Shown here: positions 17,610-32,301 of the stretch, one piece after another
How the letters are laid out: each line of letters starts with the position of its first letter
How positions within the stretch are numbered: position 1 is the first letter of the stretch
Virus record (IMG/VR): IMGVR_UViG_3300043446_000316
Span: 1-36,081 of that record
Length of the DNA stretch: 36,081 nucleotides
Direction: 5' to 3' (one strand)
Source: a virus
The notes under the pieces: generated by a model
Told to the model about the DNA's origin: nothing
The model's input: only the letters and a program-made list of their open reading frames with translations
The model's database searches: none
Translations under genes and position numbers: made by a program

Positions 17610-18600
17610 AATGAGGGCACAAGAGCTTGATGAAGTTATCAGGCAGCAAAAGATTGCTTCAAAGAATATTGATGTGGATAAGTACCTACATTTCCATGAT
17701 GTAACTACTCAGGTCAAGGATGCGACTGATTGGTTAGCTGAGATGGAAGAAAGTTATATCAATCCAACTATCGACAGTAATGTGACGATGCCTTGGACTA
17801 CGACTCATGGAGACTTCAAGTTTCGGATGGGTGAGGTAACGGTTTATGGTGGGACTAACGGTTCAGGAAAGTCTCTTATCACAGGTCAGATTGCTTTGAA
17901 TTTAGTGCGTCAAGGCAAGAAAGTATGTATCGCGTCTTTTGAGATGCAGCCGAAATTGACGTTATGGCGAATGATTCGTCAGTTCAGCGGTGAGTTTATT
18001 GATGATCCACTGGCATCGGATAGGGGTGGATATATCAGTCCGTTGATGGCTAGGTTTGCTAGGTTTATCAAAGGCAAGTTATTTATTTACGATCAGCAAG
18101 GAACTACTACGCCAAATAAGACGATAGCGATGGCGAGATATTGCGCTATGGAAAAAGGAATAACGCATATCTTTATCGATTCGCTGATGAAGTGCGTAGA
18201 GAAAGAGGATGACTATAACGAACAGAAGCGGTTTGTAGATGAGATGTGCTCATTGGCTAGGGATCATGATGTTCATATTCACTTGATTCACCATATCAGG
18301 AAGCAAGAGACTGATGAGAAGCAGCCTAACAAGAATGACTTGAAGGGTTCAGGATCGATAGCGGATCAGGTGGATAACGTGTTCTTGGTTTGGAGAAACA
18401 AAAAGAAAGAGAATATGTTGAAGCAAGGTGAAGTTGGATTAGATGATATTGCAGATACGTATTTAATGTGTGAGAAGCAGAGAAATGGGGATGCTACAGA
18501 GTGGTACAAGTTATGGTTTCACTCAAGCAGCCAGCAATTTGTTGAGAAATTAGGAGGCTATCCAATTGACTTCGATAATGGTGGAAGGTTCGCTCAATGA
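17593..18600 (+). CDS. DnaB/Twinkle-type RecA-fold replicative helicase
   Basis: A 335-residue ATPase. It has Walker A GGTNGSGKS (residues 86-94), SFEMQPKLTLWRMIRQFSG as the conserved SF4 region after strand two, Walker B HIFIDSLMK (192-200), the HLIHHIRK motif (about 230-237) and GSGSIADQVD (252-261), which senses nucleotide and DNA in hexameric helicases. It lacks the DnaB N-terminal domain and is a core motor, so primase zinc finger and initiator may supply the missing contacts. The last four bases overlap the start of the next frame. Confidence 0.85.
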   Translation: MTNLLEMRAQELDEVIRQQKIASKNIDVDKYLHFHDVTTQVKDATDWLAEMEESYINPTIDSNVTMPWTTTHGDFKFRMGEVTVYGGTNGSGKSLITGQIALNLVRQGKKVCIASFEMQPKLTLWRMIRQFSGEFIDDPLASDRGGYISPLMARFARFIKGKLFIYDQQGTTTPNKTIAMARYCAMEKGITHIFIDSLMKCVEKEDDYNEQKRFVDEMCSLARDHDVHIHLIHHIRKQETDEKQPNKNDLKGSGSIADQVDNVFLVWRNKKKENMLKQGEVGLDDIADTYLMCEKQRNGDATEWYKLWFHSSSQQFVEKLGGYPIDFDNGGRFAQ

Positions 18601-19429
18601 GTTGGCTCTTTTCGCGGGCGCTGGTGGAGGCATACTTGGGGGGAAACTTCTCGGATGGAGAACAGTCTGCGCCGTTGAATGGGAGCCATACGCAGCTTGT
18701 GTACTTGCCGCAAGACAAAATGACAAAGTTCTCCCGCCTTTCCCGATATGGGATGACGTTCAAACCTTTGACGGAAAGCCGTGGAGAGGAATTGTTGACG
18801 TTATATCTGGAGGATTTCCGTGCCAAGACATTAGCGCAGCAGGAAAAGGAGCAGGAATTGAAGGAGAACGAAGCGGAATGTGGCGAGAAATGGCGAGGAT
18901 CATTCGCGAAGTGGAGCCAAGATTCGTATTCGTGGAAAACTCACCAATGCTTACTTCTAGGGGACTTGGAGTCGTTCTCGGAGACTTGGCCTCGATGGGG
19001 TTTAATGCGGCGTGGGGAGTGTTGGGAGCAGCAGACGTTGGAGCAAACCATCAGAGGGACAGAATCTGGATTGTCGCAAGAAATATGGCCTACTCCAAGA
19101 AGTTGCAGTGCAATGGCAGCAACAATAACGCAAGAATCAGCATGGAACGAAAAAAGGAATCCGAATTTGGAGACAATAGTTGGAAGAACAATATATCCGA
19201 CTCCAACAGCCCACAATTCAAAGGAAGGAGCATTCCCAGCGGAATATACCAGGAAAACTCCTACGCTTGCGACTCACGCTGGTGGGAAATTGAACCCAAC
19301 GTGGGTAGAGTGGCTGATGGGGTGGCCGCTAGGGTGGACAGACTTAAAGCCATTGGAAACGGACAAGTACCACTTTATGCAGCAGAAGCATGGAAAATCT
19401 TGAGCAATACCGTCATCAATGCGAGGTGA
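18566..19429 (+). CDS. C5-cytosine DNA methyltransferase
   Basis: A 287-residue enzyme with motif I LALFAGAGGG (residues 13-22), IV GGFPCQDISAAG with catalytic Cys86, VI ENSP (124-127), VIII QRDRIWIVA, and the final RVDRLKAIGNGQVP (256-269). It methylates cytosine at C5 from S-adenosylmethionine. The TTG at 18566 has GGAGG eight bases upstream; ATG at 18578 is an alternative start. Between motif VIII and IX the target-recognition region is unusually short and low in complexity (Asn/Ser/Lys-rich), and this stretch is where the other frame also codes. It may protect phage DNA from restriction. It is almost fully overlapped by the next feature. Confidence 0.8.
   Translation: MTSIMVEGSLNELALFAGAGGGILGGKLLGWRTVCAVEWEPYAACVLAARQNDKVLPPFPIWDDVQTFDGKPWRGIVDVISGGFPCQDISAAGKGAGIEGERSGMWREMARIIREVEPRFVFVENSPMLTSRGLGVVLGDLASMGFNAAWGVLGAADVGANHQRDRIWIVARNMAYSKKLQCNGSNNNARISMERKKESEFGDNSWKNNISDSNSPQFKGRSIPSGIYQENSYACDSRWWEIEPNVGRVADGVAARVDRLKAIGNGQVPLYAAEAWKILSNTVINAR
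18597..19403 (+). CDS. second long frame overprinted on the methyltransferase gene
   Basis: An 807-base frame in the other reading phase, inside the methyltransferase gene. It starts in ATGA shared with the helicase stop and has GGAAGG nine bases upstream. The 268-residue product begins MSWLFSRALVEAYLG and has a WPRWGLMRRGE segment, WPTP elements (EIWPTPRS) and a distinctive end (VEWLMGWPLGWTDLKPLETD). I recall similar MSWLFSRALV proteins and VEWLMGWPLGWTDL ends from other phages, beside or over such methylase genes. That recollection supports coding but I could not check it. Function unknown; the bias toward Trp/Pro/Glu is unlike a random frame. Confidence 0.65.
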   Translation: MSWLFSRALVEAYLGGNFSDGEQSAPLNGSHTQLVYLPQDKMTKFSRLSRYGMTFKPLTESRGEELLTLYLEDFRAKTLAQQEKEQELKENEAECGEKWRGSFAKWSQDSYSWKTHQCLLLGDLESFSETWPRWGLMRRGECWEQQTLEQTIRGTESGLSQEIWPTPRSCSAMAATITQESAWNEKRNPNLETIVGRTIYPTPTAHNSKEGAFPAEYTRKTPTLATHAGGKLNPTWVEWLMGWPLGWTDLKPLETDKYHFMQQKHGKS

Positions 19430-19590
19430 GATATGTCTTAGCAATAAGAGCTACTAATAGAGATGAGGCTATGAAATATTTATCGTTAGTACAGGAAAAA
19501 AGAAAAGAAAAAGCAAAGCAGTTAATTGATGATTGTAAAAAACAATGGGAACTAGGAAATAGAGGTCAATGGGGAGACTGGCGTGAATAG
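19390..19590 (+). CDS. small charged helical protein after the methylase locus
   Basis: A 66-residue protein whose start lies in the final codons of both overlapping frames. The sequence MENLEQYRHQCEVRYVLAIR followed by KRKEKAKQLIDDCKKQWELG is helical and basic, with two cysteines. The ending GNRGQWGDW overlaps the next gene. I have a vague recollection of such proteins as a small phage DUF family of unknown function. The ribosome site is weak, so coupling from upstream is likely. Confidence 0.65.
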   Translation: MENLEQYRHQCEVRYVLAIRATNRDEAMKYLSLVQEKRKEKAKQLIDDCKKQWELGNRGQWGDWRE

Positions 19591-30386: not shown

Positions 30387-31346
30387 ATGAGCGATACTCA
30401 GAACACGACACCTGATGGTAGTGGTGAGTTGACGGTAGAAGGTGCAGCTAACGCTTTCTTGGGCTTAATGGGTGGAGAAGAAGGCTCCGACGGACAACCT
30501 GAACTCCAAGCAGAAGCCAACGAGAGCGAGGCCGAATCTGATGATGAATCAGAGGTAGAACAAGATGATGTCGTTGAAGAAGCCGAGGAACCTCAAAGAT
30601 TCCGTGTCAAAGCCGCTGGCGAAGAACGGGAGGTAACCCTAGATGAGCTTATCAAGTCTTATCAACTTGGCACTGATTACACCAAGAAATCGCAAGCTGT
30701 AGCTGAGGAACGTAAGGCGGTTGAGGCCGAGCGCCAAGCGGTTCAAGAAGCTAAGGCTCTGCGCGATCAATACGCGCAACGTCTTGAGATGATGGAGCAA
30801 ATGCTCAAACCTCAAGATGAGACGGAAAACCTAGCTTACCTGAAGGAAACTGATCCTATTGGCTACTCTGTAAAGGTAGCTGAGATGGTCGAGAGGGATA
30901 AGCAACTCAATGCTGTTAGGGCTGAACGCGAGAGAATCGCACAGCAACAAGAGCATGAACGGCAACAGAATCTTCAGCGTTATGTCGCTGAGGAAAGCCA
31001 GAAGTTAGTGGCTGCTGTTCCAGAGTTTGCAGACCCGGCTAAAGGTGAGACTTTGCGGAAGAACATCCGTGAGTTTGGAAAGAGTCTAGGGTTTTCGGAT
31101 CAAGAGTTAGCGAGTGTCTATGACTCTCGTGCGGTTCTAACGCTTTACAAGGCAATGCAGTACGACAAGCTAGTTGCTAGTAAGCCAGAGATAACTAAAA
31201 AGGTTGCTCAGGCTCCTAAAGTGATTAAGCCCGGCGTATCGCAGCCTAGAGATAGTTCAGCGGAGGAAATGAAGAAACTTAAGTCGCGGGTCAAAAACTC
31301 TGGAAGGGTTTCTGATGCCGCAAGCGTCTTTGAGAAATTTATTTAG
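30387..31346 (+). CDS. scaffolding protein candidate
   Basis: A 319-residue protein directly before the major capsid gene. The N-terminus is very acidic (EANESEAESDDESEVEQDD). It is followed by RFRVKAAGEEREVTLDELI, a long charged coiled coil (EERKAVEAERQAVQEAKALR onward) and a basic C-terminal end. Acidic head, long helix and basic end are the hallmarks of phage scaffolds, which guide procapsid assembly through the basic tail. The ATG at 30387 has AAGGAAA nine bases upstream. Confidence 0.8.
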   Translation: MSDTQNTTPDGSGELTVEGAANAFLGLMGGEEGSDGQPELQAEANESEAESDDESEVEQDDVVEEAEEPQRFRVKAAGEEREVTLDELIKSYQLGTDYTKKSQAVAEERKAVEAERQAVQEAKALRDQYAQRLEMMEQMLKPQDETENLAYLKETDPIGYSVKVAEMVERDKQLNAVRAERERIAQQQEHERQQNLQRYVAEESQKLVAAVPEFADPAKGETLRKNIREFGKSLGFSDQELASVYDSRAVLTLYKAMQYDKLVASKPEITKKVAQAPKVIKPGVSQPRDSSAEEMKKLKSRVKNSGRVSDAASVFEKFI

Positions 31347-31356
31347 GAGTTAAATC

Positions 31357-32301
31357 ATGGCAACTTATACCGCACATTCCGCTATCGGTATCCGTGAGGA
31401 TTTGACCGATGTTATCTATGACATTTCGCCTACCGAGACACCTTTCATGTCCTCGATTGGCAAGACTAAAGCTACGAACGTCTATCACGAGTGGCAGACT
31501 GACTCGCTGGCTGCTGCAACTACGGCTAACGCTGCTGTTGAAGGTGCTGACGCTTCTGACGCAACTCTGTCTCCTACGACTCGTCTTGGTAACTACACCC
31601 AGATTCTGCAAAAGACCATCAAGGTTTCTGGCACTCTGGACACTGTGAACAAAGCTGGTCGTAAGTCTGAGAAGGCTTATCAGCTTGCTAAAGCTTCTCA
31701 GGAACTCAAGCGCGATCTGGAAACCATTCTGCTGTCGAATCAGGGTCGTGATGCCGGTAACGGCTCCACTGCTCGTAAGATGGGTTCGTTGCTGTCGTGG
31801 ATTAAGACCAACTCGTCTGCTCAGACTAACGGTGCTGATCCTACGACTATCGGTGTTTCGACCCGTACTGATGGCAATACCCGTACCTTTACTGAGACTT
31901 TGCTGAAAGAAGTCGTGGCAGAGGTGTTTACTTCTGGTGGTTCGCCTAAAGTTCTGATGGTTGGCGCTGCTGGTAAGCAGAAGGTTTCTTCGTTTGCTGG
32001 TATTGGTCAGACTCGTTTCAATGTCAACGGCAATCGTCCTGCAACCATTATCGGAGCTGCTGACATCTACGTCAGTGACTTCGGAAATATGGCGGTAGTT
32101 CCGAATAGATTTATGCGTACCCGTGATGCTCTGATCCTTGATCCTGAGTATGCAGCAATTGCTTATCTGCGTCCGTTCATGACTAACGAACTGGCAAAGG
32201 CTGGTGATGCTGACAAAACTCAAGTTCTGGTTGAGTGCACACTTGAGGTTAAGAACGAGGCTGCTCACGGCATCGTTGCTGACCTGAATATGGCTCTGTA
32301 A
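31357..32301 (+). CDS. major capsid protein, SU10/DUF5309-like
   Basis: A 314-residue protein after the scaffold, with GGAG before the ATG. The start MATYTAHSAIGIREDLTDVI and DISPTETPFMSSIGKTKATN, then QKTIKVSGTLDTVNKAGRKS with ELKRDLETILLSNQ, follow the SU10-type/DUF5309 capsid family with an HK97 fold. The central domain contains KVLMVGAAGKQKVSSFAGI and the end DALILDPEYAAIAYLRPFM. The codon use is visibly smoother and richer in C-ending codons than in neighbours, as in highly expressed genes. A strong terminator follows. Confidence 0.9.
   Translation: MATYTAHSAIGIREDLTDVIYDISPTETPFMSSIGKTKATNVYHEWQTDSLAAATTANAAVEGADASDATLSPTTRLGNYTQILQKTIKVSGTLDTVNKAGRKSEKAYQLAKASQELKRDLETILLSNQGRDAGNGSTARKMGSLLSWIKTNSSAQTNGADPTTIGVSTRTDGNTRTFTETLLKEVVAEVFTSGGSPKVLMVGAAGKQKVSSFAGIGQTRFNVNGNRPATIIGAADIYVSDFGNMAVVPNRFMRTRDALILDPEYAAIAYLRPFMTNELAKAGDADKTQVLVECTLEVKNEAAHGIVADLNMAL

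Follow-up and report, generated by a model that had tools for sequence, protein, structure and literature searches.

In M.EcoHK31I the coding sequence of the small chain (beta) lies within the gene of the large chain (alpha), in a different reading frame, and M.EaeI is related to this enzyme; the genes of M.AquI are not fully nested. M.EcoHK31I is a C5-methyltransferase made of two polypeptides: the large chain carries motifs I-VIII and X together with the predicted recognition domain, and the small chain carries only motif IX (PMC3404938). In M.AquI the large chain ends within the variable region, and the remainder of this region is found with motifs IX-X in the small chain (PMC3404938). Given the M.EcoHK31I precedent, the principle of a split into two polypeptides is already known. 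In the open-licence PMC papers we found no account of how widely phages and bacteria carry the nested arrangement, of a constraint hopping between frames, or of a recognition region lying in the nested frame. New here are the breadth of the pair, the frame-hopping selection and the placing of the recognition region in beta.

The locus analyzed here belongs to the 36,081-base IMG/VR virus record IMGVR_UViG_3300043446_000316, referred to as the window. It consists of a methyltransferase frame (A) and a second frame (B) nested in it. As in M.EcoHK31I (YGGCCR), motifs I-VIII and X are separated from motif IX, which we place in B from where it stands with respect to motif X in the single-ORF relatives, and the smaller gene is nested in the larger one, here in the +1 frame and conserved in relatives. 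Two differences are apparent: the literature predicts the recognition domain of M.EcoHK31I in the large chain, whereas constraint in the window puts it in the nested chain, and B covers nearly all of A, the two starts often being separated by 4 nt. In M.AquI (CYCGRG) the second polypeptide contains motif IX and the distal part of the variable region, much as proposed for the window and as in the actinophage splits Mundrea gp78/77 and Ryadel gp8/7, but the second chain of M.AquI holds motif X as well, whereas in the window motif X is in A. Single-ORF enzymes of the Tweety gp72 type have the same order of parts (motifs I-VIII, a variable region with PTPxxxD, EWMMGWPxGW, motif X), but all in one frame and one protein. 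Gp50 of Paenibacillus phage Diva ("g49 internal gene") is likewise a +1 ORF within a cytosine methyltransferase and matches phrog_1008 (1e-73), but it is recorded as hypothetical and the record proposes no function.

Layout of the two reading frames

The features of the locus are listed below, with the evidence in brackets.

18552..18556 (+), AGGAG, ribosome-site-like, 9 nt upstream of the TTG of A and within the helicase gene
18566..19429 (+), frame A, putative alpha subunit with the C5-methyltransferase core, motifs I-VIII and X (ORF, Pfam, PHROG, M.HhaI, selection)
18583..18588 (+), GGAAGG, ribosome-site-like, 8 nt upstream of the ATG of B (sequence)
18597..19403 (+), frame B, +1 of A, putative nested beta subunit (ORF, phrog_1008, conservation, purifying selection)
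18818..18826 (+), motif IV of A, catalytic PCQ (sequence, Pfam match)
19052..19063 (+), motif VIII of A, QRDR (sequence, profile match)
19077..19277 (+), variable/target-recognition region, constrained in B and as if neutral in A
19290..19346 (+), motif IX position in B, LNPTWVEWLMGWPLGWTDL, where frame A reads GRVADGVAARVDRL (hhalign, complementary profile matches)
19355..19372 (+), motif X of A, GNGQVP (profile match 338-374 at 5.7e-6; constraint on A resumes)

Frame A encodes 287 aa from the TTG at 18566 or 283 aa from the ATG at 18578, and B encodes 268 aa from an ATG on the same strand. The codons of B start at base 2 of the A codons, so the wobble base of A is the second base of B. The ATG of B overlaps the stop of a DnaB-like helicase gene as ATGA. 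An earlier note on this DNA had described two long frames open in the same direction over the same bases, with B coupled to the helicase stop and preceded by a ribosome site, and the layout above bears this out. The ends it quoted for B are correct, except that 18 more residues come after VEWLMGWPLGWTDL. Both proteins may be produced, the basis for this here being the starts and the ribosome sites. A 66-aa DUF7696 gene (E 1e-7; 19390-19590, +) begins within the ends of A and B, so that three reading frames are used around 19390-19403. Recognisable head, terminase, portal and annealing-protein genes are also encoded in the window. Opposite the major head gene (31357-32301, +; phrog_1328, 4e-114) lies a 309-codon antisense ORF (31339-32268, -); it had no match in PHROG, and the codons of the head gene probably create it incidentally.

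Frame A matches Pfam DNA_methylase PF00145 (E 4e-34), phrog_363 (7.5e-68) and M.HhaI (1.2e-14). Its motifs I, IV (PCQ), VI (ENS, not ENV), VIII (QRDR) and X (GNGQVP), with the PF00145 fold, make it a C5-methyltransferase alpha chain. No motif IX is recognisable in A. Recognition region and motif IX are thus not united with the core in this polypeptide, and a motif IX-like segment is found in B. The earlier view of A as a complete methyltransferase with all key motifs does not hold, since no motif IX can be recognised and the recognition region is unconstrained.

Conservation of the pair and selection along the gene

Both frames are open in nearly all of the loci fetched (~160 viral and ~80 bacterial). 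A genome scan with a single protein gave no matches and one with a profile gave 127 loci; a regular-expression census serves as a rough guide only. The pair is present in ~80 bacterial genome loci and in Leptospira and Acinetobacter plasmids, and weakly in an archaeal plasmid. B begins with ATG in all 168 full-length matches. An ATG, GTG or TTG of A lies exactly 4 nt upstream of the ATG of B in 107 of 138 distinct loci; in the others A seems to start further upstream or a few bases past the ATG of B. The end of B is mostly 5-17 nt upstream of that of A. Protein lengths differ among loci, and indels in the shared variable region preserve both frames.

This openness was compared with chance expectation. 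When A was recoded synonymously, following the codon usage of 16 other genes of the window, the span of B acquired a mean of 9.45 stops, and none of 20,000 trials was free of stops. Shuffling the codons of A itself left B without stops in 0.05% of cases (P = 5e-4, for this single locus). In 79 viral loci, which were fetched via A alone and so were not chosen for B, the +1 frame is open across the gene in nearly all and the +2 frame mostly has 11-26 stops. Nonsense codons in A with B intact, or in B with A intact, each concern a few per cent of loci. In four loci (L095, L201, L202 and L214) nonsense codons break A within conserved motifs and B is uninterrupted; this may reflect recent decay, an error in sequencing, or a role that B has without A.

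To measure selection, each single-base change was scored for whether it is silent in A and whether it is silent in B. This is an OLGenie-style count made with our own code and not with the published program. Over 25 independent pairs at 85-97% identity, dNN/dNS is 0.25 for B (bootstrap 0.19-0.31) and dNN/dSN is 0.21 for A (0.17-0.26); the +2 control frame gives 1.67, without a B-like signal of constraint. Sites that are silent in A and change B vary, per site, ~0.3 times as often as doubly silent ones. Purifying selection is thus found in each frame beyond the constraint imposed by the other. The conserved overlapping gene pair proposed earlier is supported on all counts: homologues are found far from this gene and not only as exact methylase copies, stops in the B frame of related methylases are rare (3 of 138 distinct loci), and purifying selection acts on B.

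Constraint alternates between the frames in the order A-B-A, at motif boundaries. Over motifs I-VIII, A-silent changes exceed B-silent ones, with pSN/pNS of 4.8, 4.2 and 2.4 in three successive regions. In the variable region the ratio is inverted, to 0.30 (0.22-0.38); here A evolves as if neutral (pNN/pSN 0.97, 0.87-1.09) and B is constrained (pNN/pNS 0.29, 0.23-0.35). It is still inverted at LNPTWVEWLMGWPLGW (0.45), at the position of motif IX, and reverts to 5.1 (3.6-7.5) at motif X of A. The same order is observed in bacterial pairs and in viral pairs of greater divergence, the final flip being weaker in the bacterial ones (1.34, 0.96-1.82). The first 160 residues of B are weakly constrained (pNN/pNS 0.45-0.72).

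Relatives of the nested frame

B matches phrog_1008 (1.9e-27), and gave no match in Pfam and nothing credible in the PDB. Its probable nature is indicated by phage methyltransferases made of a single ORF, in which a segment of the B type, LNPxWxEWLMGWPxGW, stands in frame directly before motif X. Single-ORF Tweety gp72 matches both phrog_363 (7e-82) and phrog_1008 (3.9e-51). On a profile of single-ORF relatives, which is a mixture because some of the "fused" loci are actually nested and still carry the motif IX segment in +1, A of the window matches 5-183 and 338-374, and B matches 240-343. With hhalign, GKLNPTWVEWLMGWPLGWTDLKP of B aligns to the segment before motif X (probability 96.9, E 1.7e-10), strongly only over 23 columns.

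Partly split relatives were also found. In the actinophages Mundrea, Ryadel and Andrew, A stops after motif VIII and the +1 protein contains the PTPxxxD region, an EWMMGxxxGW segment and motif X. Twelve IMG/VR loci have this kind of partly overlapping split, always in +1, with an overlap of 185-227 nt. In one further locus (L303), KLNADWVEWLMGFPVGW and GNALVP belong to the A frame and are covered by a full-length Pfam match, and the PTPxxRD region is still in +1, so that the switch between frames seems to fall at different points in different lineages. This locus and two others (L342, L276) have motifs IX and X both in A, and their +1 frame keeps part or all of a PTPxxRD-type region. Tweety gene 69 (L261) is an isolated N-terminal half with motifs I-VIII, and around motif VIII part of its sequence is identical to that of gene 72; we had considered gp69 as a standalone beta, wrongly, as it is the N-half and gp72 the single-ORF form.

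The profile matches, the hhalign alignment and the in-frame segment of L303 together indicate that the B segment occupies the position of motif IX. The conserved GRVADGVAARVDRL of A is the DNA of this position read out of frame. The earlier note had left the partner protein without identity; it was right that B is a separate conserved frame, and the partner can now be identified as the likely supplier of the recognition region and motif IX. With these supplied by B, the "low-complexity" recognition region of A would be filler in an unselected frame.

Structure prediction was of limited help. AlphaFold2 on B alone (137 sequences) gave low confidence, with a mean pLDDT of 58; eight rows from annotated phage and plasmid records were excluded from the input. 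A hybrid chain, formed of A up to motif VIII followed by B and aligned with rows from A, B and single-ORF relatives, was confident in its N-half and below ~60 in the B half, and docking of A with B was not seen in it. Foldseek on the confident N-half re-found only the core of M.HhaI (4.7e-14).

A probable split enzyme and its alternatives

Very probably the locus encodes one C5-cytosine methyltransferase made as two polypeptides from overlapping frames. Alpha, from frame A, would contribute motif X and the core of motifs I-VIII, which binds the cofactor and carries out catalysis; beta, translated from its own ATG inside the alpha gene, would contribute motif IX together with the target-recognition region. 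Both chains would associate, residues of B would contact the DNA, and the complex would methylate a specific sequence, most likely shielding phage DNA from host restriction. Recognition of DNA by B is suggested by its position and by the selection acting on it.

The A-B-A order of constraint would also fit a ribosome that shifts frame twice, passing from A (motifs I-VIII) to B in +1 (recognition region, motif IX) and back to A (motif X), and the single-ORF relatives do show the same order of parts in one chain. Such a path requires two programmed shifts, and it needs neither a B free of stops from its own ATG nor an A open through its neutral region. Of the 138 loci, seven in which one frame is interrupted by a stop or break were set aside beforehand. 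Residues 1-110 of B are, however, free of stops in 131/131 loci against 8 expected, and A is free of stops across its neutral region in 126/126 against 9; the expectations come from codon shuffles, since single-base stop classes are too noisy in the variable region. As the ATG of B is moreover universal among full-length matches, we consider a double frameshift improbable.

B could instead be an independent overprinted protein, for instance with an anti-restriction or other accessory role that has nothing to do with the methyltransferase reaction. Accessory roles are common among overprinted phage genes, B has no counterpart in Pfam or the PDB, and its N-terminal 160 residues are unexplained. 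Its constrained part is, however, the very segment that stands in frame directly before motif X in single-ORF methyltransferases, and A is without exactly that part and neutral where B is constrained. B is thus probably not an unrelated protein, and an independent role for it appears very unlikely. That B is untranslated, its openness and similarity being echoes of conserved A and of base composition, is almost certainly wrong. B does lie almost wholly within a conserved gene, and part of its similarity, over motif VIII of A, could be such an echo, but this reading fails the recoding null, leaves the ~0.3 frequency at A-silent, B-changing sites unexplained, and conflicts with a variable region that is constrained in B and unconstrained in A, a signal that the +2 frame does not have.

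If the locus is a split enzyme, its consequences may extend well beyond the window. We lean towards the view that a large proportion of the phage and prophage "DNA cytosine methyltransferases" with the signature GRVAxGVPxRVDRLxxLGN are alpha halves only, this signature being the out-of-frame shadow of motif IX of a nested beta. Their specificity would then reside in the hidden frame, because the nested and mostly unannotated beta also holds the recognition region. Records often annotate one frame only, so that for many phages and bacteria the enzyme is incompletely recorded. In Pseudomonas phage phPA-G (L083) and Vibrio phage 1.291.O (L085) the deposited annotation keeps only B, as "hypothetical protein", and the methyltransferase itself is thereby missed. 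Cloning the annotated frame alone would probably give an inactive enzyme, and a specificity predicted from it would come from filler sequence. One enzyme tiled over two frames, with selection hopping between them, would be a clean natural test case for the origin and persistence of overlapping genes, and the series of single-ORF, partly split and fully nested relatives can serve to reconstruct how the overlap arose.
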